Positions 3 to 34,893 of a stretch of 34,893 nucleotides of DNA are shown here, in pieces. Numbering within the stretch: position 1 is the first letter of the stretch; each line of letters opens with the position of its first letter. Location of the stretch: assembly GCA_022825945.1 (NCBI GenBank), contig JAJDVS010000048.1:1-34893 (forward strand), in the 5' to 3' direction. Both the position numbers and the translations under genes were made by a program. The notes beneath the pieces were generated by a model, which did not search any database, had not been told where the DNA came from, and saw only the letters and a program-made list of their open reading frames with translations. Source of the stretch: Pseudomonadales bacterium. Its GTDB lineage: Bacteria; Pseudomonadota; Gammaproteobacteria; Pseudomonadales; Pseudohongiellaceae.

Positions 3-3000
3 GCCCCGGCCGCGGCGCAGACGCCGACGGCCAACGCCGACGGCTCCTACACGGTGCCCGGGGACTGGGCGCTCAAGCCTTCCGGCGTTGCCGGCGGCAA
101 GTTCCGGCTCCTGTTCGTGACCACGGGGCGCCGCGGCGCGCAGTCGGGCAACATCGCCGACTACAACACTTTCGTGCAAACAGAGGCCGCGAGCGGCCAC
201 GCGGCCATCCAAGCCTACAGCAACCAGTTCAGGATGGTTGGCTCGACCTCCTCGGTCGATGCCCGCGACAACACCATGACCACCGGGACCGGCGTGCCCA
301 TCCACTGGCTGAACGGCGCCAGGGTCGCGGACGACTACAACGATTTCTGGGACGGCTCCTGGGACGCGCAGATGGCGGGCGACACGCGCAATGCCAGTGG
401 CGTGGCGCAACCCGGCGCCCGGAAGCACTGGACCGGCAGCCGAACAAACGGCACCTCCTTCTTCCCGCTGGGGCCGGTAAACGTCAACTGGGGTGAGTGG
501 GGTTCGGGCACGAATCCGATTAACCAGGGGCAGGACAGCAGCGCCCAGCAGCGGCGACTGCTGGCCCTGTCGCCGGTGTTCCGGCTGCCGACGGCCGTGA
601 CCGTTGCGGCGGAGGCGGCGGTGGTGGCGGAGGGGGCGGATGTGGTCTTCACGCTGACCGCGACGCCGGCGCCGGACGCGCCGCTGTCGGTCACGGTGGC
701 GGTTTCGGGGGAGACGCGCACGGTCATCATCCCGGTGTCCGGCACGGCGACCCTGACGATCCCCACGGCGGGCGACGGGTTCGACGCGCCGCAGGGCGCG
801 GTGACGGCGGCGGTGCGGCCCGGCGGGGGCTACGAGGTCGGCGACCCGTCCTCGGCCACGGTGGGGGTCTCCGACGCCGACGAAGACCCGCTGACGGCGA
901 GGTCGCTGGTCCCGGTCGGCGGGACGACGCTGCCGGAGGGCGCGGGCGCCGATATCATTATTGTCCTGTCGAGACCCCTGGCCGCCGACGAGACGGTGAC
1001 GCTGCCGCTGACGATCGTCGGGGGCACCGCCGGCAGGTCGGACTACCGGCTGGTCTGCATCGCATCGAGCCCCGCCGGGGGCACCTGCAACGGCTTTGAC
1101 GGGACCGATCCCTCGATCACCCTCAGCGGCGCGCGTTTGGACGGCGGACACAGAATAACGGGTCCGCTGCGGATCGAGGCCGTCGAGGACAACACGGCCG
1201 AATCGGACGAGACGGTCATTCTGTCGCTCGGGGGCGGGGCGCAGAGGACCATCACCCTCCGGGACGCGCCGTCGTCGGTGGCACTGTCCTTCAATCTGGG
1301 GGCCTTCTCGGGAGAAGAGGACGATGGCTTCGCCCAGCCGACGCTGCGGGTGGACGCCGCGCCGGGCCGCGACATCGCGGTGCCGCTGGTCTTCACGGAC
1401 ATCACGGCCAGGGCCGGGGCGGATTACGTCGGGAAGGCCACGGCGACGTTCGCGGCGAACGGCTTGACCGTCAACTCCATTGACATCGGGATGCTGGAAG
1501 ACGCCCGGTGCGAGGGGGACGAGACCTTCCGGGTGGAGATCGACGCGTCGCGGCTGCCGTCCTGGGTGACCGTGGGCGCGCAGGACTCGACGGTGTTCAC
1601 CATCGAGGACAACGACTGCACGGTCACGGTCTCGAGCGATGGCGCGGCGACGGAGGGCACGGACGCGAGCTTCACGGTGCGCGTGGATCCGGCGCCGGTC
1701 AGGAACCTGAACCTGGAGATCGGCTACGCGGTATCGGAGGATGCGGGCAACAGCCGGGAATTCGTGGCCGCGGGGGACAAGGGCGCGGGGAAGACGGTCA
1801 CCGTCGGCATGGGGAGGACGGTCACCGTCGGCATGGGGAGGACGATCACCGTCGACGCGAACAAGGCGCAGGTGACGGTCCCGACGCTGCATGCCGCGGG
1901 CGCGGATGCGAACGGGGTCGTGACGCTGACCCTGGAGGCCCCGGGGCCCAGCGCCCAATACACGCTCGGCAGCCCGTCGTCGGCGTCGGTGCGCGTGATC
2001 GACGAATCTTATCCGGCGTCCCATGTGAGCTTCACGGGTGTCGCCAAATCGGCGGGAGGGCCGCTCGATCCCGCCTCGACGGACGGGTCGCACGAGGTGA
2101 ACGAGAGCGCGGGTTCGGTATGGGTGGAGCTGGAGTTGAGCGAGAAGCCGGAGTTCACGACCACCATGTATGTCCGGGAGAGGGGTTCGGGCACCACGGC
2201 CACGCGCGGCGGGGACTACAAACGTGGTGGGCCGTCCGGCTGGATCGCGAACTTCGGGACCGGGCGCAAGGCGCGGTTCCGGATCCCGATCATCGACGAC
2301 GGGATCGACGACGACAGTGAGACGCTGACGCTGGAGATCTACGGGGCGGACAGCGCCACGTCGCAGTTCAACGAGGTCGTCGGCTCCTACACCGACAGTC
2401 AGGGCAATACCCACGACACGCATGGCTTCGGCGCCAGCACCGGCGCGCTGGGGACCTACACGCTGACGATCCGGGACTACACGTCGAGCCAGGCGGGCGA
2501 CGACGTCGATGTGTGGCTGTCGAAGTCGGTCTACAAGGTGACCGAGGGCGACGCGTTCGAGGGGATGGTGCACATCGGGCAGCCGCGTGGCGCGGACACC
2601 GTGATCAGCCTGACCGACACGCGGGGCACGGCCGGGCCCGGCAGCGACTACACCGCCGGCCCGTACCCGGTCACGGTGCCGGCGGGCGAGACGGGCGCCG
2701 CGTTCACGATCCGGACCCTGGATGACGAGGACCTGGAGAACAAGTCGGAGTCGTTCAGGGTGCGGATCGACGACGCCAGCCTGCCGGCGGGGTTCGTGAC
2801 GTCGAACGGGACCGGCAGGCCGGAGGAGGCCCGCGTCGACATCATGGAGAACGATTACACCTTCTGTTTCGACCAGCGCAGCTATGCGTTCAATGAGGGC
2901 GGGGAAGCGGTCATGGGGCTCACGTTCTCGGTGCCGCTGCCCGAGGGCGGCTGGTTCAAGTTCCTGTACGCCAACCGGAACGCCGGCGACAGCGACTATA

Positions 3001-6146: not shown

Positions 6147-6348
6147 TGTCATTCCGCGCGGAGTGAAGGTCCCCCCTTCATCCCGCGCGCAGTCGCGGAA
6201 TCTCCCGTCGATTGGCGGTGCCGGGTTCATGGGATTCCGCGACTCCGCTTCGCTGCGCGCAGAATGACGGAGGAAGAACTTCGCGCGGGATGACAGGGGA
6301 GGGACTGCGCGCGGGATGACGGAGGAGGGACTGCGCGCGGAATGACGG
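6147..6348. repeat. Palindromic GATTCTGCG-type repeat cluster, locus A
   Basis: The 320-bp gap between the Calx-beta gene and the moxR-like gene is filled by degenerate copies of a dispersed palindromic repeat. It starts with a plus-oriented piece (TCATTCCGCGCG, 6149-6160) and a second one ending in CGCGGAATCTCC (6194-6205). A near-complete minus-oriented unit follows at 6232-6270 (GGATTCCGCGACTCCGC ... GCGCAGAATGACGG). Three shortened tails come next (about 6280-6297, 6303-6322 and 6329-6348), each ending in GGATGAC or GAATGAC and spaced about 26 bp. No ORF with coding character is present. Confidence 0.85.
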
Positions 6349-6406
6349 AAGTAGGTGTTTACCGCCGGCGAGGGCGAGCCGGCGAATGGATTCCAGCGGC
6401 ATGTGG

Positions 6407-7307: not shown

Positions 7308-8486
7308 ATGCTCATCCGTTTTTTCACCCACCTCAAGGACAGCGGCCTGCCGGTTTCGGTGACGGAACTGTTCGCCCTGCTTGAGTGCCTCGACGAAAAC
7401 ATCGTCTTCGGCAACGTGGATGAGTTCTACCATCTCGCCCGCCTGTGCATGGTCAAGGACGAAAAACACTTCGACCGCTTCGACCGGGCCTTCTCCAGCT
7501 ACTTCAAGGATATCGAGGCGGCCGGCGACATCCTGCTCCACAAGCTGCCCGGGGAATGGCTGCGGCGCCGCTTCGAGGCTTCTCTCAGCGAGGAGGACAA
7601 GGCGCGCCTCGAAAGCCTCGGCGGCCTCGGGAAACTGCTTGAGGAATTCCGCAAGCGACTGGAAGAACAGGGCAAACGACACGAAGGCGGCAGCAAGTGG
7701 ATCGGCACCGGCGGCACTTCGCCTTTTGGCGCCTATGGTTACCATCCCGAGGGAATCCGCATCGGCCAGCCGGAAGGCGGAAGCGGCAAGGCGGTCAAGG
7801 TCTGGGACCGGCGCGAATACCGCGACCTCGACGACAGCGTGGAGATCGGCACCCGCAATATCAAGCTCGCCCTGCGCAAGCTGCGCAGGTTCGCGCGCAC
7901 TGGCGCGGAGGAGGAACTCGACATGAACGGCACGATTTCCTCCACCGCCAAAAAGGCCGGCCTGCTAGACATCAAGATGGTCCCGGAGCGCCACAACGCG
8001 GTGAAGGTGCTGCTGTTCTTCGATGTGGGCGGCTCCATGGACCCGCACATCAAGGTCTGCGAGGAGCTGTTTTCGGCGGCGCGTTCCGAGTTCAAGCATC
8101 TGGAATACTATTATTTCCACAACTTTCTCTATGAATCGGTCTGGACCCGGGGCCGGCGGCGCCATGCCGAAACCGAATCGACCTTTGAACTGATTCACAA
8201 GTATCCCGCGGACTACAAGGTCGTCTTTGTCGGCGACGCCACCATGGCGCCCTATGAAATCACCCACGCCGGCGGCAGTATCGAGCATTACAACGAGGAG
8301 CCCGGCGCGGTCTGGATGCGGCGCATGAGCGAGCATTTCGAGCATCTGGTCTGGCTCAATCCCACGCCGCGGGACTATTGGGAACACAGCTATTCCATCG
8401 GGCTCGTGCGGGAACTCGTGACAAACCGCATGATGCCGTTGACCATAAAGGGGCTGGAAGAAGCCATGGCCCGGCTATTGCGCTAG
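7308..8486 (+). CDS. VWA-domain CoxE-like protein, partner of the MoxR ATPase
   Basis: This 392-residue protein carries a C-terminal von Willebrand A fold with a MIDAS-like motif D239-V-G-G-S243 (DxGxS), which coordinates Mg2+ in this family. The N-terminal half, with ARLCMVKDEKHFDRFDRAF, resembles the CoxE/COG3552 group. Members work with MoxR AAA+ proteins, apparently in assembly of metal-containing enzymes. No signal peptide or transmembrane segment is seen, so it is likely cytoplasmic. The ATG at 7308 fits the family start. It has no Shine-Dalgarno sequence. Instead a small hairpin (CGGTT-GCC-AACCG, 7295-7307) abuts the start codon, suggesting translational coupling to the upstream gene. 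Downstream it runs convergently into dinB, with a two-hairpin repeat between them. Confidence 0.88.
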   Translation: MLIRFFTHLKDSGLPVSVTELFALLECLDENIVFGNVDEFYHLARLCMVKDEKHFDRFDRAFSSYFKDIEAAGDILLHKLPGEWLRRRFEASLSEEDKARLESLGGLGKLLEEFRKRLEEQGKRHEGGSKWIGTGGTSPFGAYGYHPEGIRIGQPEGGSGKAVKVWDRREYRDLDDSVEIGTRNIKLALRKLRRFARTGAEEELDMNGTISSTAKKAGLLDIKMVPERHNAVKVLLFFDVGGSMDPHIKVCEELFSAARSEFKHLEYYYFHNFLYESVWTRGRRRHAETESTFELIHKYPADYKVVFVGDATMAPYEITHAGGSIEHYNEEPGAVWMRRMSEHFEHLVWLNPTPRDYWEHSYSIGLVRELVTNRMMPLTIKGLEEAMARLLR

Positions 8487-8492
8487 GAGCGT

Positions 8493-8562
8493 GAGCAAAA
8501 CAAAACCACGTTTTTGTTTTGCGATAATGAAAAACTCTACGGATGGAGTTTTTCAGAGAATA
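8493..8562 (+). repeat. Two-hairpin dispersed element, copy 1
   Basis: First of three near-identical copies (others at 18474-18546 and 27330-27402). Stem I pairs GCAAAACAAAA (8495-8505) with TTTTGTTTTGC (8512-8522) around a 6-nt loop. The spacer is GATAAT. Stem II pairs GAAAAACTCT (8529-8538) with GGAGTTTTTC (8545-8554) around the loop ACGGAT. The one change in stem II relative to the other copies (C to T) is kept as a G-U pair. The element lies between convergent genes and contains the stop codon of dinB, so it may also act as a bidirectional terminator. Confidence 0.9.
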
Positions 8563-9587
8563 TTTGGGTCTTCAGGCAATCGAATTCCCACGCCGAGCAG
8601 GCGCACCGGCTTGCCGCCGCGCTGGAATCCGGTGTCCAACAGCTGCGCGAAATTTTCCGCCACAAGCGATGTGGACTGCATTTCCACTGTGGTCTGGCTG
8701 AAATCGTGGAACTTGATTTTCACCACTTGCTTGCGAATCCGCACCGGGCCGGGCCGCCCGCCGATGCGCTGCTCCAACTGGGCGATCAGGCCCGGCAACT
8801 CCGCGAGACAGGCCGGCAGGTCCGGCAGATCACTGGCGTAGGTGCGCTCCACGCTGATGGATTTGCGGATCCGGTGCGGCTGCACCGGCCGCTCGTCAAT
8901 GCCCCGGCTCTGCAGATACAGCCGCTGGCCAAAGCGACCGAAACGCCGCTGCAATTCATCCCGGGACAGGCCCTGCAATTCACCGCAGGTGGCAATACCG
9001 AGTTCGCGCAGTTTGCCACTGGTTACCTTGCCCACGCCATGCAGTCTGGAAACCGGTAATTTCCCAATGAAATCCCCCACCGCCTCCGGGGCCACCAGAT
9101 ACTGGCCATCGGGTTTGTTCCAGTCGCTGGCGATCTTGGCGAGGAGCTTGTTCGGCGCGATGCCGGCGGAGATGGTGATGCCGATTTCTTCCCGCACCGC
9201 CTTGCGTATCGCCTCGGCGACACGAACCGCATCGCCGCCGAACTCCCTGCAGTCGCTGACATCGAGATAGGCTTCATCGAGTGAGAGCGGTTCGATGATG
9301 TCCGTGTAGCGGCGGAAAACTTCGTGCACCTGGCGGGAAATCCGCCGGTATTTTTCCATGTCCGGGTGGATGATGATCAAATTGGCGCAGCGCCGCCGGG
9401 CCGTGGCCGAGGGCATGGCGGAATGAATGCCGAACTTGCGCGCCACGTAGTTGCAGGTGGCGATGACTCCCCGCTGTTCCGGCAAGCCGCCCACGGCCAC
9501 GGGCTTGCCCGCCAGGGCGGGATTGTCCCGCTCCTCCACCGAAGCATAGAAGCTGTCGCAATCACAATGGATGATGTGGGGCGCCAT
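8553..9587 (-). CDS. dinB: DNA polymerase IV (Y-family translesion polymerase)
   Basis: This 344-residue protein is DNA polymerase IV, an error-prone Y-family enzyme that copies past lesions. It has the N-terminal metal-binding segment IIHCDCDSFYASVEE (catalytic Asp near 9), SLDEAYLDV with D104 and E105, the helix-hairpin-helix region (KLPVSRLHGVGKVTSGKLRELGI) and a little-finger domain (RKSISVERTY). It is the last gene of serA-serC-dinB, starting 17 bp after serC. The usual C-terminal clamp-binding peptide (QLxLF type) is not evident: the protein ends LLGVGIRLPEDPNIL. Its last two or three codons and its TGA stop fall within the dispersed two-hairpin element, so the original end may have been replaced. 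No LexA box was looked for beyond the immediate upstream sequence, which is serC. Confidence 0.95.
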   Translation of the reverse strand: MAPHIIHCDCDSFYASVEERDNPALAGKPVAVGGLPEQRGVIATCNYVARKFGIHSAMPSATARRRCANLIIIHPDMEKYRRISRQVHEVFRRYTDIIEPLSLDEAYLDVSDCREFGGDAVRVAEAIRKAVREEIGITISAGIAPNKLLAKIASDWNKPDGQYLVAPEAVGDFIGKLPVSRLHGVGKVTSGKLRELGIATCGELQGLSRDELQRRFGRFGQRLYLQSRGIDERPVQPHRIRKSISVERTYASDLPDLPACLAELPGLIAQLEQRIGGRPGPVRIRKQVVKIKFHDFSQTTVEMQSTSLVAENFAQLLDTGFQRGGKPVRLLGVGIRLPEDPNIL

Positions 9588-13911: not shown

Positions 13912-14052
13912 CGTCATCCCGCGGGGAGATTCTGCGACTCCGCTTCGCTCCGCGCAGAATGACGGGGTGGGGTGCTCCGCTGCGCGCAGAATGACGGGGT
14001 GGGGTGCTCCGCCCCGCGCAGAATGACGAAGGGGGGACTCCGCGCAGAATGG
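13912..14052. repeat. Palindromic GATTCTGCG-type repeat cluster, locus B
   Basis: Most of the 318-bp gap before the nhaC-like gene is a repeat cluster. A full minus-oriented unit (GATTCTGCGACTCCGC ... CGCAGAATGACGG) at about 13927-13965 is followed by three shortened tails (CGCAGAATGACGGGGTGGGG type) about 31 bp apart, the last cut to CGCAGAATGG. It is the same family as loci at 6147-6348, 15714-15827 and 18395-18430. The remaining 14053-14207 shows no feature I can support. Confidence 0.85.
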
Positions 14053-14207
14053 TCGAGGGATGGCTTCTCGCGGTGTGGCGAGGGACGGGCAATAGACACG
14101 GCGGCGGCTGTGCCAGTATGCTTGGCGCTCCTTGCGAAACGCGCGGGCCATTACCCGCGGTCCGCGATTTGCCGGACTGGGGGGACGCGCCGAAAAGCGG
14201 CGAGCTT

Positions 14208-15713: not shown

Positions 15714-15827
15714 CCCACTGTCATTCCGCGCGTAGCGAAGCCGTCCTGCCCGTCATTCCGCGCGTAGCGAAGCCGTCCTGCCCGTCATTCTGCGCGTAGC
15801 GAAGCGGAGTCGCAGAATCTCAGTGGG
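15714..15827. repeat. Palindromic GATTCTGCG-type repeat cluster, locus C
   Basis: Two identical 32-bp units (15721-15752, 15753-15784; each begins TCATTCCGCGCGTAGCGAAG) are followed by one full unit (15785-15820) ending GTCGCAGAATCTC. The whole is bracketed by inverted CCCACTG (15714-15720) and CAGTGGG (15821-15827). Units point opposite to those of loci B and D. The cluster lies between nhaC and proA. Confidence 0.88.
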
Positions 15828-17807: not shown

Positions 17808-18190
17808 CGGCGCCGGCAAGGAAGAAGGAACCGCCAGGGCCACTCGACGAAGGGCAGATCGCCCGGCTGGTGGAAAGCATTCTCGAAGACGGCAAGGCGG
17901 AGTCGATAAGCTGCATCGATGTGCGGCAACTGACTTCCATAACCGATTACATGGTCATGGCGACGGGAAACTCCCGCATCCATACCAGGGCGCTGGCCGA
18001 CGCCATCGTCGAGAGAATGAAGGGGCAGGGCGTCGCTACCAATGGAATCGAAGGCCTTCCAGCCGCCGAATGGCTCCTGGTGGATCTCGGCCCGGTGGTG
18101 GTCCACATCATGCTTGCCCAGGTCCGCGCCCTCTACGACCTCGAAGAACTATGGAACCTGAAACCGGCGAACTGGGAGCCTGCGCCGTAG
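17804..18190 (+). CDS. rsfS: Ribosomal silencing factor RsfS
   Basis: This 128-residue protein of the RsfS/Iojap family binds uL14 on the 50S subunit and blocks joining with 30S in starvation. The conserved core is DITDYMV-like (TSITDYMVMATGNSRIHTRALADAI) and EWLLVDLGPVVVHIML, followed by YDLEELW. The start overlaps nadD by 4 bp. The last four residues (EPAP) and the stop codon lie inside the left arm of a large inverted repeat (18175-18335), so the extreme C-terminus may come from an inserted element. rlmH, the usual next gene, is missing. Confidence 0.95.
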   Translation: MTAPARKKEPPGPLDEGQIARLVESILEDGKAESISCIDVRQLTSITDYMVMATGNSRIHTRALADAIVERMKGQGVATNGIEGLPAAEWLLVDLGPVVVHIMLAQVRALYDLEELWNLKPANWEPAP

Positions 18191-18335
18191 GAATTCGCGA
18201 AAGCGAAAATGCGCTATCGCCGCGCCTCTGGTTGGTCGATTGAGGCGAATATTGGTGAATATGCAACGAAATCGACCAACCAGAGGCGCGGATGAGAGCG
18301 GATTTGCAGCCGTGAATTCCTATGGCGCAGGCTCC
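18175..18335. repeat. 161-bp inverted repeat, MITE-like, overlapping the rsfS 3' end
   Basis: Outer arms 18175-18199 and 18311-18335 (25 nt) are complementary except at two positions that can form G-U pairs. Inner arms 18220-18241 and 18270-18291 are perfectly complementary over 22 nt. The stretches between outer and inner arms are partly complementary. The 28-nt apical part contains a short ATATT/AATAT stem. The whole could fold into one long hairpin or cruciform. No transposase gene and no clear target-site duplication are visible. It fills the place where rlmH usually stands. Confidence 0.9.
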
Positions 18336-18394
18336 TGGGAGTGACAAGGCAGTGGAAACATACTGCTACCCCGCTTTCCCGCAAACCTGACGGA

Positions 18395-18430
18395 GATTCT
18401 GCGACTTCGCTTCGCTACGCGCAGAATGAC
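18395..18430. repeat. Palindromic GATTCTGCG-type repeat, locus D (single unit)
   Basis: One minus-oriented unit in which ATTCTGCG (18396-18403) pairs with CGCAGAAT (18420-18427) around a CTTCGCTTCGCTACG-type centre. It is the cleanest single copy of the family seen in multiple copies at 6147-6348, 13912-14052 and 15714-15827. Confidence 0.88.
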
Positions 18431-18446
18431 AGTGAAAGGAAACAAG

Positions 18447-18473
18447 GAAAGCTCTGATTAAGTCAGAGCTTTC
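18447..18473 (+). repeat. Hairpin repeat with TTAAG loop, copy 1
   Basis: GAAAGCTCTGA (18447-18457), loop TTAAG and TCAGAGCTTTC (18463-18473) give an 11-bp perfect stem. A second copy at 27178-27208 has a paired change in the stem (GAAAG/CTTTC becomes GGAAG/CTTCC). It is joined directly to the two-hairpin element at 18474. Confidence 0.9.
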
Positions 18474-18546
18474 GGGAGCAAAACAAAGCCACGCTTTTGT
18501 TTTGCGATAATGAAAAACTCCACGGATGGAGTTTTTCAGAGAATAC
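18474..18546 (+). repeat. Two-hairpin dispersed element, copy 2
   Basis: Stem I: 18478-18488 with 18495-18505 (one G-U pair). Spacer GATAAT at 18506-18511, preceded by TGC so that it resembles an extended -10 box. Stem II: GAAAAACTCC (18512-18521) with GGAGTTTTTC (18528-18537), loop ACGGAT. It ends about 90 bp before the mrdA start, in the mrdA sense orientation. Confidence 0.9.
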
Positions 18547-18571
18547 CAAGTGATTTCATGCCGCAAATCAG

Positions 18572-25817: not shown

Positions 25818-26642
25818 GTGGCAACTTCTTCCAGTTCCGAATCGCCTGGCCAGCGGACTTTGCCCATTGCCTATGTCGCAGGCGCGGCTTTGGAGGAGTT
25901 GCCGACGGATCTTTACATCCCGCCCAACGCCCTGGAAGTCTACCTCGAAGCCTTTGAAGGGCCGCTCGACCTGCTGCTCTATCTCGTCAAGCGCCAGAAT
26001 ATCGACATTCTCGAAATCGATGTGGCGGAGATCACCGAGCAGTACATGGCCTATATAGAGCTGATGCAGGCGGGCCAGTTCGAGCTTGCCGCGGAGTATC
26101 TCGTCATGGCGGCCATGCTCGCCGAGATCAAGTCGCGCATCCTGCTGCCGCGACCGGAGACCGGCGACGAAGAGGAAGCCGACCCGCGCATGCAACTGAT
26201 TCGCCGCCTGCTCGAATACGAACGCTACAAGCAGGCGGCGGAAAATCTCGACAAGCTGCCCCGGCTCAACCGGGAACTGCATCAGGCCAGGGCGGAGCCG
26301 CCGAGTTTCGAGCGCACCGTTCCCCGGCCCGTGGTGGAATTGTCCGATCTGCTCGCCGCCATGACCAATGCCCTGCGTCAGGCGGAATTGTTCGAACATC
26401 ATCATGTGCAGGTGGAAACCATCAGTCCCCGGGACAAGATGAGCCAGGTGCTGCGCCGCCTGAACCGGGAGCAATTCCTGCCGCTCACCGCCATGCTCGA
26501 TCCGCGGGAAGGCCGTCTCGGTATCGTGGTCACCTTTCTCGCGGTCATGGAACTGACCCGCAACGCCTTGGTGGAGATCGTGCAGACCGAAGGTTTCGGC
26601 CCCATCCACCTGCGTCTCGCCGAAGAAGGACCGGGCCCGTGA
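25818..26642 (+). CDS. scpA: Segregation and condensation protein A
   Basis: This kleisin-family protein joins ScpB and SMC (or acts with other condensins) to compact and segregate the chromosome. The hallmark YIPPNALEVYLEAFEGPLDLLLYLV and RQNIDILEIDVAEITEQY lie at the N-terminus, and the C-terminal winged helix (REGRLGIVVTFLAVMELTRNALVEIVQ) closes the SMC head. GTG at 25818 gives 274 residues with a normal leader before the conserved core. The frame is open back to a TTG at 25674 but that extension has no recognisable content and no good ribosome site. The scpA stop overlaps the scpB start (GTGA). Confidence 0.93.
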   Translation: MATSSSSESPGQRTLPIAYVAGAALEELPTDLYIPPNALEVYLEAFEGPLDLLLYLVKRQNIDILEIDVAEITEQYMAYIELMQAGQFELAAEYLVMAAMLAEIKSRILLPRPETGDEEEADPRMQLIRRLLEYERYKQAAENLDKLPRLNRELHQARAEPPSFERTVPRPVVELSDLLAAMTNALRQAELFEHHHVQVETISPRDKMSQVLRRLNREQFLPLTAMLDPREGRLGIVVTFLAVMELTRNALVEIVQTEGFGPIHLRLAEEGPGP

Positions 26643-27190
26643 ACCAGGATCTGAAAGCCATTGTCGAAGCCCTGCTGCTTGCCGCCGACCGGGCGCTTTC
26701 CCTCGATGAAATCCGCGCGGTGTTCGATGCCGGAGAGCGGCCGGAACGCGAAGCGGTGGAGGAAGCCCTGGCCGGCCTCGCGGAAGACTGCGGCCCGCGA
26801 GGCGTGGAACTCAAGGAAGTCGCCTCCGGTTACCGCCTGCAGGTTAAACAGGAACTTGCCGAATGGGTCAGCCGCCTGTGGGAGGAAAAGCCGCCGCGCC
26901 ATACCCGGGCGCTGCTCGAAACCCTGGCGTTGATCGCCTATCGGCAGCCCGCCACCCGGGGCGATGTGGAGGAAGTGCGCGGCGTTGCGGTCAGCACCGG
27001 CATCATCCGCACCCTGCTTGACCGGGAATGGATCCGGGTTGCCGGCCATCGCGAAACTCCCGGGCGCCCGGAACTGTTCGTGACCACCAGGCAGTTTCTC
27101 GACTATTTCAATCTCAAGAGTCTGGCGGAGTTGCCGCCGCTGGATGAAATCAGCGAAGAAAACGGTGCTGGAGCACTAGGGAAGCTCTGA
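26639..27190 (+). CDS. scpB: Segregation and condensation protein B
   Basis: This 183-residue protein has two winged-helix domains and dimerises to bind ScpA. Motifs are IVEALLLAADRALSLDEI, LLETLALIAYRQPATRGDVEEVRGV and GRPELFVTTRQFLDYFNLKSLAELPPL. GTG at 26639 overlaps the scpA stop. The last three residues (GKL) and the TGA are encoded by the left arm of a 13-bp palindromic hairpin (27178-27208) that also exists upstream of mrdA. The gene end therefore appears to have been remodelled by a repeat. Confidence 0.94.
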   Translation: MNQDLKAIVEALLLAADRALSLDEIRAVFDAGERPEREAVEEALAGLAEDCGPRGVELKEVASGYRLQVKQELAEWVSRLWEEKPPRHTRALLETLALIAYRQPATRGDVEEVRGVAVSTGIIRTLLDREWIRVAGHRETPGRPELFVTTRQFLDYFNLKSLAELPPLDEISEENGAGALGKL

Positions 27191-27208
27191 TTAAGTCAGA
27201 GCTTCCCT
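27178..27208 (+). repeat. Hairpin repeat with TTAAG loop, copy 2
   Basis: AGGGAAGCTCTGA (27178-27190), loop TTAAG, TCAGAGCTTCCCT (27196-27208): a perfect 13-bp stem. Compared with copy 1 (18447-18473) one stem position changes on both sides so pairing is kept. The left arm encodes the end and stop of scpB. No U-run follows, so it is not a standard intrinsic terminator. Confidence 0.9.
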
Positions 27209-27331
27209 GCGGCACATGGAAGTGCCGCCGAATTCGATGGGTGAAGGCAAGCGTTTTCGAAGCGCAGCTTCGAGCGCGGCCGCAACGGTACGGAGCTACG
27301 CTCCGTAACTGGAGCAAGCCATTGAATTCGG
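27209..27331 (+). other. Multi-hairpin structured intergenic segment
   Basis: Successive inverted repeats fill this segment. GCGGCAC/GTGCCGC (27209-27228) has loop ATGGAA. An outer pair of 13 nt at 27228-27240 and 27319-27331 (one G-U) encloses two further hairpins: 27257-27263 with 27267-27273 (7 bp, extendable by GCG/CGC) and 27289-27296 with 27300-27307 (8 bp, loop TAC). It separates the TTAAG hairpin from the two-hairpin element, which are fused in the copy before mrdA. It could be a structured RNA or a patchwork of palindromic repeats. Confidence 0.7.
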
Positions 27332-27402
27332 GAGCAAAACAAAACCACGCTTTTGTTTTGCGATAATGAAAAACTCCACGGATGGAGTTTTTCAGAGAAT
27401 AC
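27330..27402 (+). repeat. Two-hairpin dispersed element, copy 3
   Basis: Stem I: GCAAAACAAAA (27334-27344) with TTTTGTTTTGC (27351-27361). Spacer GATAAT (27362-27367). Stem II: GAAAAACTCC (27368-27377) with GGAGTTTTTC (27384-27393), loop ACGGAT. Nearly identical to copies at 8493-8562 and 18474-18546. It stands 44 bp before rluB, in the sense orientation. Confidence 0.92.
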
Positions 27403-27446
27403 CTGGGATTTGAGCGGCAGGGCGAGACCGTCCCGGCTGATCATGC

Positions 27447-28193
27447 ATGAGCGAAAAACTGCAAAAAGTGCTTGCCCGGGCAGGGCTTGGCTCGCGCCGG
27501 CAGCTTGAAGGCTGGATCCGGGACGGCAGGATTCAGGTGAATGGCCGTATCGCCAGCCTCGGCGACCGGGTCGAAGCCGGCGACCGCATCAGCGTGGACG
27601 GCAGGAAGTTCAACCATAATCCCAAAACCCGGCCGCGTTGCCGGGTGCTTCTCTACAACAAGCCCGATCACGAAGTCTGCACCCGTTCCGACCCCCAGGG
27701 CAGGCCCACGGTATTCGACCGCCTTCCGCCCCTGCGCAACAGCCGCTGGGTGGCGGTGGGCAGGCTCGACCTGAATACCAGCGGTTTGCTGCTGTTCACC
27801 AATGACGGCGAACTCGCCAACCAGCTCATGCATCCGGCCAGCGGCATTGATCGCGAATACGCCGTGCGGGTGCTTGGCAAGGTCAGCGACGGCATGGTGC
27901 AAAACATGCTGGACGGAGTCGAAATCGACGGCCAGTTTTGTCGTTTCAGCGACATCCGCCATTTTGGCGGCGAAGGCGTCAACCAGTGGTATCACGTGGT
28001 GCTAATGGCGGGCCGCAACCGCGAAGTGCGCAAGCTGTGGCAGTCCCAGGGCTTGCGGGTCAGCCGCCTGAAAAGGGTTCGCTTTGGTCCGGTCTTTGTT
28101 CCCAGTTCGGTAAAGGCTGGCCGATTTCACGAACTGGACCCGGCGGAAATCGATGAACTGCGCCGCTACGGCAATCCGCTCAAGGGGGGTTGA
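27447..28193 (+). CDS. rluB: 23S rRNA pseudouridine synthase, RluB type
   Basis: This 248-residue enzyme has an N-terminal S4 RNA-binding domain (EKLQKVLARAGLGSRRQLEGWIRDGRIQVNG) and a RsuA-family catalytic domain with the aspartate in GRLDLNTSGLLLFTNDGEL. RluB makes the pseudouridine near position 2605 of 23S rRNA. The assignment to RluB rather than RluE/F rests on the adjacency to scpA-scpB. It is shorter than E. coli RluB, lacking the long basic C-terminal tail. ATG at 27447 was chosen because it gives the expected MSEKLQKVLA start. Another ATG 4 bp earlier is out of frame. Confidence 0.92.
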   Translation: MSEKLQKVLARAGLGSRRQLEGWIRDGRIQVNGRIASLGDRVEAGDRISVDGRKFNHNPKTRPRCRVLLYNKPDHEVCTRSDPQGRPTVFDRLPPLRNSRWVAVGRLDLNTSGLLLFTNDGELANQLMHPASGIDREYAVRVLGKVSDGMVQNMLDGVEIDGQFCRFSDIRHFGGEGVNQWYHVVLMAGRNREVRKLWQSQGLRVSRLKRVRFGPVFVPSSVKAGRFHELDPAEIDELRRYGNPLKGG

Positions 28194-28254
28194 AATCCCG
28201 GCTGCCCGGAGCTCGGCCGTGAATCCGGCGGACAGGTCCGCGGCGGGTCGATAG

Positions 28255-32245: not shown

Positions 32246-33220
32246 TCAGCCGAACAGGTCGCGCTGGGCCTTGCGCCAGAACACGAGTCCGATCAGCGCG
32301 TTGAACAGGATGAAGAAGTTGTGCTGCACCAGGCCGAAAGCCGCCATCTGGCCTTCATTCTCGGGAAACAGGATGACCCAGAAGGTAATCGCCGCCGCCC
32401 GCATGGGGGTGGGCACCGTGGCGGCGAAGAAGATCACCGGCAGATAGGGCAGCAGCATCAGGATCGAGGCATCGACTCCGAACAGATTGAGCGCCACGGT
32501 ATACACCACCACGGCGGCCAGCAGGGCGGGCGAGCGCAGCAGGAAGAAATAGAGATAGTGGCGGGCGTCCGCCTGCTTGAAGGCGTTCAGGACGCGGCGC
32601 TCGCGCAGTTGCAGCCCCGGCAGCAGCCTGCCCTTGAAATACGCCAGCCAAAGCAGCCAGAACAGGCCGCCGCCCAGGGCGATCCAGGGAATCAGGCTGA
32701 AAACCTCCGGCAGGCCCTCGCTGCCGAATGCGTAGCCGATGGTGGCCCAGATCAGCAGATAGAACAGCTCGCAGAACATGATGAACAGCATCACCGAGCC
32801 CACTTCCCAGCCGGGGACGCCGTGGCGCCGGTTGAGATACCAGGCCATGGCGCCCTTGCCCACCTGCTCATTGAAGATCGAGATGATGTAGGTGCTGGCC
32901 CGCACCGGCAAAATGTCCCGGTAGCGGATCTTGCCGATGAACCAGTTCAGCGCCCGGGCCGCCACCAGGGTGTCGATGGCGAAGTAGAACAGCGAGTAGG
33001 ACATCATCAGCAGCAGCCAGTAGCCCCAGCTCACATTGGCGAAGACGCCGGCCATGTACGCCGCGAGGGACAGTCCTTCCCGGGCGGCGGCGCCCGCGAT
33101 GCGAAAATACAGGTAGGTGAAACAGCCGATGGTGATGAGCAGGAAAATCGCGCGACCGATGCGCCCACCGGTCTTCGGCGGGGCGTTTTCCGTTACTTTC
33201 GCTGGATTGTCTTCATTCAT
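32246..33220 (-). CDS. Flippase-like integral membrane protein (LPG synthase TM-like)
   Basis: This 324-residue protein has about eight hydrophobic segments and resembles the membrane part of lysylphosphatidylglycerol synthase/flippase-like proteins. A hydrophilic N-terminal tail precedes the first segment (IFLLITIGCFTYLYF). NEQVGKGAMAWYLNRRHGVPGWEVGSVMLF resembles the conserved cytoplasmic turn of that family. No soluble transferase domain is attached. The family is linked to lipid flipping or head-group transfer. The exact role is unknown. The start overlaps the end of the epimerase gene by 8 bp, and the next gene follows after 10 bp. Confidence 0.7.
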   Translation of the reverse strand: MNEDNPAKVTENAPPKTGGRIGRAIFLLITIGCFTYLYFRIAGAAAREGLSLAAYMAGVFANVSWGYWLLLMMSYSLFYFAIDTLVAARALNWFIGKIRYRDILPVRASTYIISIFNEQVGKGAMAWYLNRRHGVPGWEVGSVMLFIMFCELFYLLIWATIGYAFGSEGLPEVFSLIPWIALGGGLFWLLWLAYFKGRLLPGLQLRERRVLNAFKQADARHYLYFFLLRSPALLAAVVVYTVALNLFGVDASILMLLPYLPVIFFAATVPTPMRAAAITFWVILFPENEGQMAAFGLVQHNFFILFNALIGLVFWRKAQRDLFG

Positions 33221-34100
33221 GGGGGGATTTCTCCATGAGCCTGGCCAGGGTGGTTTTCAGGGGTGTCAAGGTAATTCCAAGTGCTTTGTCGGCGTTTTCG
33301 TGAACGGCTTCGTCGGTGGTGATGACATCGATGACCGCCGGGGTAATGCCGCCTCGCAGCCGACTCGTCAGGGCTGCGCCCAGCTTTGCCGCAAGGATGG
33401 GAATGCCGCGGATGCGGATGGACTTTCCGAGCAATTCGGCGGCCCGCCCCACCAATTCGCGGTAAGCGATTCGCTCCGGGCCGGCGAGCTCGTGGACCCC
33501 GGCCTCGGGATTGCGGCAGGCGGCGAGAATGGCGGCGCAGAGATCATCCACGTCCAGCGGCTGCAACACATATTTCCCGCCGCCGAGCAGGCTCGCCTTG
33601 CCGCGTTCGGCGGCGGCGAGCAGGGCCGCCGAGCCGGCGCTGCCGGGGCCAAGCAGGATGGGTGTCCTGATAATGACTCCCGCGGGGGCGTCACCCGCCG
33701 CCACGAGCTCCGCCTCGCCCTTGGAGCGGAAATAGGGGTTGGCGCTTGCCGGAGAGGCGCCGAGCACGCTGACGAATACCAGCGACTTCAGCTTGCCATG
33801 CCGGGCGGCGTCCGCCACGGCGGCGGTGGCGTCGACATTGGCTTCCCGGTAACTCGTATGCTTTCCCGGAATCAGGATTCCGGCCAGGTGAACGACGCTG
33901 CCGCATTCATCCAGCAAGGCGTCGAGGCTGTCCGGCTCCTGGTAGGAAATGATTCGCGGCGAGATCAGGTCGTGCGTGGGCAGGGAGCGCAATGCGCGCT
34001 CCGAGCGCACTCCGGCATTGACGGCGATACCAGCGTTCGCGGCCTGCTCCAGCAGTCGCAGGCCAACGCTGCTGTTCGCTCCTGTAACGGCGATTCTCAT
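33213..34100 (-). CDS. NAD(P)-dependent epimerase/dehydratase-like protein
   Basis: This 295-residue protein has an N-terminal Rossmann fold with TGANSSVGLRLL (6-17) and belongs to the atypical SDR/NDUFA9-like group. VVHLAGI, ASANPYFRSKGEAELVAAG (Y and K of the YxxxK-like motif region, here YFRSK) and PLDVDDLCAAI support the fold. Substrate unknown. It heads the run epimerase, flippase-like, CDP-alcohol phosphatidyltransferase, which suggests sugar or polyol head-group chemistry for a membrane lipid. Upstream is a string of hairpins. Confidence 0.8.
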   Translation of the reverse strand: MRIAVTGANSSVGLRLLEQAANAGIAVNAGVRSERALRSLPTHDLISPRIISYQEPDSLDALLDECGSVVHLAGILIPGKHTSYREANVDATAAVADAARHGKLKSLVFVSVLGASPASANPYFRSKGEAELVAAGDAPAGVIIRTPILLGPGSAGSAALLAAAERGKASLLGGGKYVLQPLDVDDLCAAILAACRNPEAGVHELAGPERIAYRELVGRAAELLGKSIRIRGIPILAAKLGAALTSRLRGGITPAVIDVITTDEAVHENADKALGITLTPLKTTLARLMEKSPHE

Positions 34101-34120: not shown

Positions 34121-34236
34121 AGGACGTTCATGCCGTCCTTGGCGCTACGTTTTTGGTTTCGCCAACCCCCGGTCTCGACATCCTTGTCGAGCCGTTCGGC
34201 CCTCGAAAAGCGTTGCTTTTCGTCGGCTGCGCCGAC
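34121..34236 (-). other. Array of five consecutive hairpins between the cofH-type and epimerase genes
   Basis: Inverted repeats in order on the plus strand: AGGACG/CGTCCT (34121-34139), TTGGCG/CGCCAA (34139-34165), CTCGACA/TGTCGAG (34174-34191, 4-nt loop), CGAAAAGC/GCTTTTCG (34204-34222) and GTCGGC/GCCGAC (34222-34236). On the transcribed minus strand the third reads CTCGACAAGGATGTCGAG, whose ACAAGGATGT equals the CsrA/RsmA consensus with GGA in the loop. The array follows the cofH-type stop directly and precedes the epimerase start. Confidence 0.75.
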
Positions 34237-34242
34237 CAGGCC

Positions 34243-34893
34243 TCACCCAGCTACTGCGTCCAGGCTCTTGACGCGCTGCCTGCGGCCCGCGGGATCGAGC
34301 GTGACGGCTTGCAGTTCAGGCGCCGCATACGCCCTTTGCGCCTGTTCGGGCCGCGCGTCTTCATATAGTGTGGTGCGCATGCGGGGAATGCGGCCGATTC
34401 CCCGGATCGCGGCGTCGATAGCCGCTGGCGGCCATTCCTGCCCGTGTTCGGCGCCGGCCGCGCGAGTGATGCTCTCGTTCATCAGGCTGCCGCCGAGATC
34501 GTTGGCGCCGGCGGCAAGGGCCAGCAACACGCCTTCGCGGCCCAACTTGACCCAGGACGCCTGGATGTTTGCGATCCGGCCATTGAGCGCCAGGCGCGGA
34601 ACCGCGTGCATGAGCAGGGCTTCGCGGAAGCTCGGCCCGGCGCGGGAGCGGCCCTTGAGATACATCGGCGCCTCCTGGGCGACATAGGGCAGGGGCACGA
34701 ACTCGGTAAAGCCGCCGGTGCGCCCTTGCAGTTCGCGGACCGCCAGCAGATGCGCGGCCCAATGTTCGGGCGCATCGACATGGCCGAACATGATGGTCGC
34801 GGTGCTGCGCAGGCCGACTGCATGGGCCGTGGCCATGACTTCCAGCCATTGCGCGGTATTGATCTTGTCGGCGCAGATGATCCGCCTGACGTC
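34243..34893 (-). CDS. cofH: FO synthase subunit 2 (CofH type), 5' partial
   Basis: The C-terminal 216 residues of a radical SAM FO synthase are present, cut by the window edge (the frame is open to 34893). Recognisable segments are RRIICADKINTAQWLEVMATAHAVGL, TATIMFGHVDAPEHWAAHL, TGGFTEFVPLPYVAQEAPMYLKGR, NIQASWVKLGREG and ANDLGGSLMNESITRAAGAEHGQEW. CofH joins a tyrosine-derived radical to the ribityl-uracil product as part of building FO, the chromophore of coenzyme F420. The radical SAM CxxxCxxC motif would lie outside the window. It may instead be the second half of a fused FbiC-type enzyme. Confidence 0.9.
   Translation of the reverse strand, partial: DVRRIICADKINTAQWLEVMATAHAVGLRSTATIMFGHVDAPEHWAAHLLAVRELQGRTGGFTEFVPLPYVAQEAPMYLKGRSRAGPSFREALLMHAVPRLALNGRIANIQASWVKLGREGVLLALAAGANDLGGSLMNESITRAAGAEHGQEWPPAAIDAAIRGIGRIPRMRTTLYEDARPEQAQRAYAAPELQAVTLDPAGRRQRVKSLDAVAG

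Follow-up and report, generated by a model that had tools for sequence, protein, structure and literature searches.

Two dispersed repeat families carrying predicted CsrA-type hairpin loops in a Pseudohongiellaceae genome

Hairpins with the hexaloop ANGGAN were found to belong to two dispersed repeat families, named here element 1 and element 2, in the genome of a Pseudomonadales bacterium (Pseudohongiellaceae). The window, i.e. the whole stretch of DNA analysed (34,893 nucleotides), contains copies of both. Judged from letters and folds, these are probably mobile 3′-UTR or intergenic repeats whose hexaloops would present CsrA sites when transcribed; we put the probability of this reading a little above even. 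Element 2 is the strongest case for candidate CsrA sites: its stems covary, yet C[A-N-GGA-N]G is retained in two loops, N varying freely.

Hairpins of the window and their number

The CsrA-type hairpins of the window are as follows.
27209..27228, plus strand: hairpin B of element 1, GCGGCAC[AUGGAA]GUGCCGC, CsrA-type hexaloop at 27216-27221.
27367..27394, plus strand: hairpin E of element 1, TGAAAAACTCC[ACGGAU]GGAGTTTTTCA, CsrA-type hexaloop at 27378-27383.
34174..34191, minus strand: first CsrA-type hairpin of element 2, CUCGAC[AAGGAU]GUCGAG.
34132..34143, minus strand: second CsrA-type loop of element 2, GCC[AAGGAC]GGC, 45 nt from the first.

An earlier note on this DNA had pointed to loops of the CsrA/RsmA form at three places. 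Its ACATGGAAGT at 27214-27223 was found with those letters, at that position and on a 7-bp stem, and ACAAGGATGT was likewise recovered on the minus strand at 34178-34187 on a 6-bp stem (sequence and fold in both cases). CACGGATG was present at 27377-27384 and 18521-18528 in a hairpin of 11-12 bp but, contrary to the claim, not in copy 1 of the repeat; hairpin E of that copy reads TACGGATG (8530-8553) and is closed by a U-G pair, missing the consensus C. The three window hairpins (27214, 27377 and 34178) each have a hexaloop ANGGAN and a C-G closing pair, and the window loops do match the CsrA/RsmA form claimed for them. The second loop of element 2 (34132-34143) was missing from the earlier list.

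Short hairpins with ANGGA unpaired are the preferred target described for CsrA in the available part of PMC7366521. The hairpins of both elements have this form, being short, with ANGGA unpaired and its GGA inside the apical loop. The CsrA consensus is likewise matched by their closing pair, C-G, and by the freedom of the N positions. Both features argue against another reader of GGA loops (a different RNA-binding protein, a loop-receptor contact or a Shine-Dalgarno-like contact), which is quite improbable even though GGA is also Shine-Dalgarno-like, CsrA binding here is a prediction from sequence, and conservation extends to further loops of element 2.

The hairpins had been presented as three unrelated stems converging on one loop. 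Two of them (27214 and 27377) instead belong to a single mobile repeat, as its hairpins B and E; the third (34178) is part of the second dispersed repeat, element 2. A census was made on both strands of 757,843 bases (40 stretches plus the window, 29% of the assembly). Among the 850 hexaloop hairpins with a perfect stem of at least 6 bp, 35 had an ANGGAN loop, vs 0-3 in eight runs of order-1 Markov sequences. The excess over controls that the earlier note had proposed to look for was present, but all 35 hairpins are copies of elements 1 and 2 and none occurs elsewhere in the sample; it is therefore due to copy number and not to independent convergence. Counted by different stems, ANGGAN lay outside the 15 richest loop classes. 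The occurrence of three stems in one window had spoken for independent hairpins in unrelated UTRs that converged on CsrA sites; this idea is refuted in the sample and can hardly be credited any longer. Sites particular to mrdA, rluB and the epimerase gene are unsupported as stated, the hairpins being members of large repeat families.

Element 1 and its copy at csrA

The copies of element 1 in the window, and the gene into which copy 3 reaches, are as follows.
27180..27402, plus strand: element 1 copy 3, hairpin chain A-B-C(inner module M)-D-E; flanks CTAG (27176-27179) and CTGG (27403-27406).
18447..18548, plus strand: element 1 copy 2, hairpins A-D-E; flanks CAAG (18443-18446) and CAAG (18549-18552).
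8487..8563, plus strand: element 1 copy 1, hairpins D-E, U-G-closed loop; flanks CTAG and TTGG.
26639..27190, plus strand: scpB, stop codon within hairpin A of element 1 copy 3.

Element 1 is a mosaic: its hairpin modules follow one another as A-B-C-D-E, the right end (GAGAATAC) being fixed and the left part variable. Copy 3 folded at -114.4 kcal/mol (z -11.2). Copy 1 lies between convergent genes and overlaps the end of the minus-strand gene. Hairpin E had 57 exact copies genome-wide and 85 rows at up to three mismatches (control pattern 0); these rows represent 79 distinct places, six rows being near-palindromic places read on the opposite strand. Hairpin B was found in 40 exact copies, and allowing up to two mismatches gave 60 rows (control 1). 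Orientation relative to the neighbouring genes showed no clear bias (n=47: ++ 15, +- 12, -+ 10, -- 8, two one-sided).

Hairpin-E contexts (131) were collected from the genome itself and from the MAGs (Pseudomonadales bacterium, JAJECW, JAJEGU, JAJDSZ) among the matches listed. Identical 4-mers flanked 36 of the 58 copies with both ends readable, vs a mean of 10.0 and a maximum of 18 in 2000 shuffles; TTAG and CTAG were favoured. Element 1 moves, since it has these 4-bp target duplications and since its copy at csrA (see below) is absent from the other csrA loci. Compared as candidate terminal inverted repeats, its ends agreed at 8/11 positions by eye (GGAAGCTCTGA vs GTATTCTCTGA). The target of IS5 is YTAR. 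The best reading of these letters is an IS-type miniature element with 4-bp target duplications, a MITE of IS5 type being considered. No autonomous IS with element-1 ends was found among the five DDE_Tnp_1 loci of the genome; eight long spans bounded by such ends were also recorded. A REP/RAYT system was rejected, with 0 matches to PF01797 (Y1_Tnp) in the 96%-complete assembly. At two loci (L111 and L172), solo palindromic mini-copies of about 50 bp consist of two element-1 right ends around an ACGGAT loop, with CTAG on the left.

GGA was kept in 130 of the 131 contexts, a count biased by the fact that most loci were fetched through hairpin E itself; the exception, a palindromic copy, was read from its opposite side. 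The base before GGA was C in 118 contexts, G in 6, T in 4 and A in 3, and the hairpin-E cores were identical in 116. In stretches fetched by place with loose outer anchors, ANGGAN was kept in 25 of 29 hairpin-E matches. The remaining four were two GCGGA, one AGGCGG and one another hairpin. Copies that have lost the ANGGAN form read CACGTATGG and CAGGCAGG.

A csrA/rsmA gene, whose presence the earlier note had asked to be checked, was confirmed by a single csrA match. The protein is canonical-looking (MLILTRR...HREEIY), with the residues expected for RNA binding. The 3′ end of csrA holds an element-1 copy (L001, G000:C38:14743-14994, minus strand). As for scpB (27180-27190), the last codons and the stop (..GKL*) were supplied by the insertion; the stop codon of csrA is within hairpin A and hairpin B comes next. 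In sister genomes csrA ends differently. Of the 28 csrA loci found, one was cut by a contig end; 26 besides the own one could be read on the 3′ side, and none of these has an element-1 copy there. csrA was detected in 28/30 genomes of the genus (the two genomes without a match have a completeness of 75% and 69%) and in 21/21 genomes at the order level, so its phyletic distribution is uninformative. RF00166 (RsmZ) gave no match in the genome, and control genomes likewise gave none over the cut-off. Scores of other sponge RNAs in the window were below threshold (RsmV 10 bits, RsmW 13.3 bits).

Structure, genomic place and movement of element 2

Element 2 and its neighbours in the window are as follows.
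34121..34249, minus strand: element 2, three-helix domain, then two CsrA-type hairpins.
34243..34893, minus strand: upstream gene with a CofH_C domain, incomplete at the window edge; the TGA in GGGTGA of element 2 serves as its stop codon.
33213..34100, minus strand: downstream gene, NAD-dependent epimerase/oxidoreductase-like, matches below curated cut-offs.

Element 2 measures about 129 nt. It was represented by 49 match rows and 36 model matches in its own genome, by 42-59 copies in each of five sister genomes (G018, G021, G022, G032 and G036), and was present in 14 of the 58 genomes searched, own included; the six rich genomes gave 283 matches in all, and beyond them 1-6 copies were found. 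An alignment of 22 close copies gave the three-helix domain and two hairpins, with loops C[ANGGAN]G or, in some copies, the five-base AGGAN. GGA was kept in all 44 loops; at position 2, all four bases occurred in the first loop, and three of them in the second. The two GGA are 45 columns apart (columns 67 and 112). One CsrA dimer can span two sites 10-63 nt apart; in element 1, the arrangement of sites varies with the modules present. In the lowest-energy fold of the window copy, the second loop is mispaired, its GGAC being paired with a downstream GUCC.

The named structure was paired in 98.7% of 594 cells of the 22-copy alignment. Both sides changed in 13 of the 27 pairs, a value reached in 0 of 500 shuffles; the helix below the second loop has only 3 pairs, which are invariant. 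In a wider alignment of 59 distinct rows, fitted to the model, 30/36 pairs changed on both sides. Among 38 near copies, the A, G, G and A positions of the two loops were altered in 5/304 cells, and, with gaps counted, loop position 2 differed from its commonest base in 15/38 copies for each loop. The GCA and GAA loops of the element were likewise conserved in these 38 copies.

When paired loops were counted in 44 near rows, two were present in 33, one in 10 and none in one. Distant copies (G011, G012, G013, G025) had two paired loops in 6/8 rows and one in 2/8, on other stems, e.g. GCCAACCC[AAGGAT]GGGTTGGC and CCGGCC[ATGGAT]GGCCGG. This loop count yielded 38 distinct stem-loop forms, one of which is a neighbouring hairpin E. 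No paired loops were found in 6/7 rows of the homologs in G009, G014, G039 and G041, and the seventh row (G009) gave a weak 3-bp match elsewhere; the loop is therefore a feature of an element-2 subgroup. These four genomes do have csrA.

G-U occupied 2/594 pair cells of the close copies, vs 57 cells with both sides changed; the wide alignment does contain G-U pairs (e.g. 33 at columns 140-241). Template switching during replication can produce double changes in one event, according to the available part of PMC8794818. Given this and the few G-U pairs, the pairing indicates that the hairpins were kept and is not proof of RNA selection. The loop pattern of element 2 is not explained by template switching.

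Element 2 starts behind GG, often at gene ends. In its own genome, 36 pieces of at least 75 nt were found; a left gene was called for 35 and was co-directional for 29 of these. After merging into 28 sites, one without a left gene, the upstream gene was co-directional at 22/27. A further count, with related genomes added to the own one, covered 49 sites: 25 co-directional, 6 opposite, 7 near an edge and 11 geneless within 400 nt. Genes were called for both counts by a codon-usage script, not by a curated finder, and thresholds differ between the counts. The TGA of element 2 itself is the stop codon of the upstream gene in 9 of the 49 sites. Ten upstream proteins were scanned and belong to diverse families, so no regulon is visible.

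Element 2 was found between rpmJ and rpsM in its own genome (one full and one weak match), twice in G032, twice in G018 and once, shortened, in G021. None was found at the other 21 of the 24 rpsM loci, over all of which the element-2 model was run. The spacer was measured in the nine of 24 genomes in which rpmJ was read by script: 33 nt in G022, 28 in G014, 67 in G027, 120 in G041, 138 in G025, 47 in G036 (a remnant by eye), 104 in G021, 347 in G032 and 397 in G018. The element has been gained, lost or doubled upstream of rpsM. In 8/56 copies, the sequence up to the element start is repeated behind the element over 14-80 nt; these eight include one site counted in two genomes (L259, L151) and a pair from a single tandem array (L269). 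Taken together, the gain and loss at rpsM and the flanking repeats indicate that element 2 also moves. Direct repeats that stop at the element start look like the product of a copying mechanism with long target duplication, and the route of movement is perhaps one that leaves such long duplications.

The direct repeat at L259/L151 is the 5′ part of a tRNA gene, and another flanked copy was seen at L097:1469-1595. In L265 (G025; 1366-1822, minus strand), a tandem pair of element-2 copies follows a 5S rRNA gene of the same strand. The 5′ flanks of element 2 in G013, G009, G014 and G011 appeared 5S-like by eye.

Strong folds, the part of the copies that lie at or behind stop codons and the position of copy 1 of element 1 between convergent genes would also suit 3′-end structures that block exonucleases or transcription (REP/BIME or terminator-like), with incidental loop letters. 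This is improbable. A terminator scan with a simple pattern (G+C-rich hairpin plus T run) gave 0 in 26600-28200 and 8300-8800, the regions of element-1 copies 3 and 1, incidental loops should not hold A-N-GGA-N while N and the stems vary, and copies lie inside the rpmJ-rpsM spacer in the own genome, G018, G021 and G032.

A similar inner module (GGGTGAAGGCAAGCG..CGAAGCGCAGCTTCG..CTGGA) occurs in hairpin C of element 1 (window 27239-27316) and in element 2. It was also seen at L220, L223, L226, L230 and L258, and the homologs in G039 and G041 are similar by eye. From these letters it is as if modules had been exchanged between the families.

The loops might instead act at the DNA level, as fixed-loop hairpins recognized in single-stranded or cruciform DNA by the mobilizing enzyme of the element and shared by descent. 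We regard this as unlikely, while noting that both families look mobile, that a module is common to them, that G-U pairs are rare in close element-2 copies, and that element 1 is nearly identical from copy to copy, the same core in 116/131 hairpins E being partly due to the way in which loci were fetched. Such recognition gives no reason to expect the CsrA form on three different stems from two families, or the orientation of element 2 with the upstream gene. In addition, the genome lacks a Y1 transposase match, and 0/5 DDE_Tnp_1 loci have element-1 ends.

Known systems and the predicted role in CsrA regulation

No Rfam family reached its gathering score in the window, and TwoAYGGAY, TD-2 and ivy-DE did not reach theirs in the window or in 10 further loci. 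TwoAYGGAY (RF01731), unmatched at gathering score in the window, is listed in the available text of PMC2864571 as a candidate RNA of human gut, gamma-Proteobacteria and Clostridiales; it was proposed to be CsrA-binding from CsrA-motif matches (PMC4333381, available part). TD-2 (RF03162) has AuGGAu and AcGgAU as consensus loops, and its end hairpin resembles E of element 1, but it scored 17.7 of the 48.7 required. ivy-DE (RF02999) aligns with hairpins A and B of element 1 (27.9 bits, E 0.0031), below its gathering score of 41.4. No paper was found under the names TD-2 or ivy-DE in the literature searched. Loose Rfam matches to c-di-GMP-II-GAG, mir, TCV_H4 and AaHKsRNA22 were below threshold and were dismissed.

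Other dispersed repeats were compared. BOX, RUP and SPRITE of pneumococcus have MITE features, and an effect on co-transcribed genes is assumed for all three; BOX is built of hairpin modules, and element 1 works like BOX-type repeats. However, host and sequence are different, and CsrA-type loops are unmentioned in the available part of the source (PMC3049150). QMITE of Coxiella are miniature elements yielding sRNAs, for which the available text of a review gives no CsrA link (0 occurrences of CsrA; PMC10969869). The TAACTGA repeats of Beggiatoaceae are dispersed, also in ribosomal-protein operons, and are possible post-transcriptional sites. CsrA was considered for them by their author, but they are without GGA and recognition by canonical CsrA was thought unlikely (PMC4679880, available part). 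Elements 1 and 2 are filed as members of none of the compared systems.

Among the matches listed for related sequences, those in Holosporales, Deferribacterales and Halobacteriales were rejected as being at chance level (about 7 expected for an 18-mer in 257 Gb by our own arithmetic); three spirochaete matches have longer matching stems and were not dismissed. In one Spirochaetes MAG (L113, JAFGJX010000070.1, about 7340-7510), a hairpin chain contains the same E hairpin and a CsrA-type GGCGATAC[AAGGAT]GTATTGCC; the chain gave no Rfam match at E 0.05.

Two further structures were noted in the window. A third dispersed repeat (GTCATTCTGCGCG..GAAGC..GCAGAATCTC) occurs at 6230-6356, 13926-14065, 15716-15824 and 18390-18440, in part as tandem units spaced by 26 and 32 bp. 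Nested inverted repeats at 18175-18335, with arms of 34 nt (18220/18258) and 25 nt (18175/18311), form a large hairpin, and similar letters were seen by eye in some other loci.

For the favoured reading, in which the hexaloops are CsrA sites, the following mechanism is proposed. The two families, apparently mobile and non-coding, would carry the hairpins as modules, and their copies would be transcribed as 3′-UTR or intergenic RNA. The C[ANGGAN]G hexaloops on such transcripts would most likely be bound by the CsrA of the genome, and the two loops, about 45 nt apart in most close copies of element 2, would suit one CsrA dimer. With less certainty, the many copies may buffer free CsrA, and host mRNAs, that of csrA itself included, may be brought under its influence through stability or titration. 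A wider proposal is tentative, and we consider it more doubtful than probable: that both families took on CsrA-type hairpins, scatter 3′-UTR sites over a Pseudomonadales group and form a genome-wide CsrA sink with the csrA mRNA in the circuit, so that mobile elements, not point mutation, would wire the Csr network.

No description of CsrA/RsmA sites on mobile repeats was found in the literature searched (titles and starts of abstracts, most subscription journals and all preprints lying outside). The matter bears on how global RNA-binding regulators acquire new targets. Elements 1 and 2 also allow the proposal in the literature that CsrA binds TwoAYGGAY-like RNAs to be put to a concrete test. 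If the reading is true, tens of sites would be added together by a mobile element that brings the hairpin with it and inserts at gene ends; the new sites would fall where transcription is likely, and the regulator could be soaked up.
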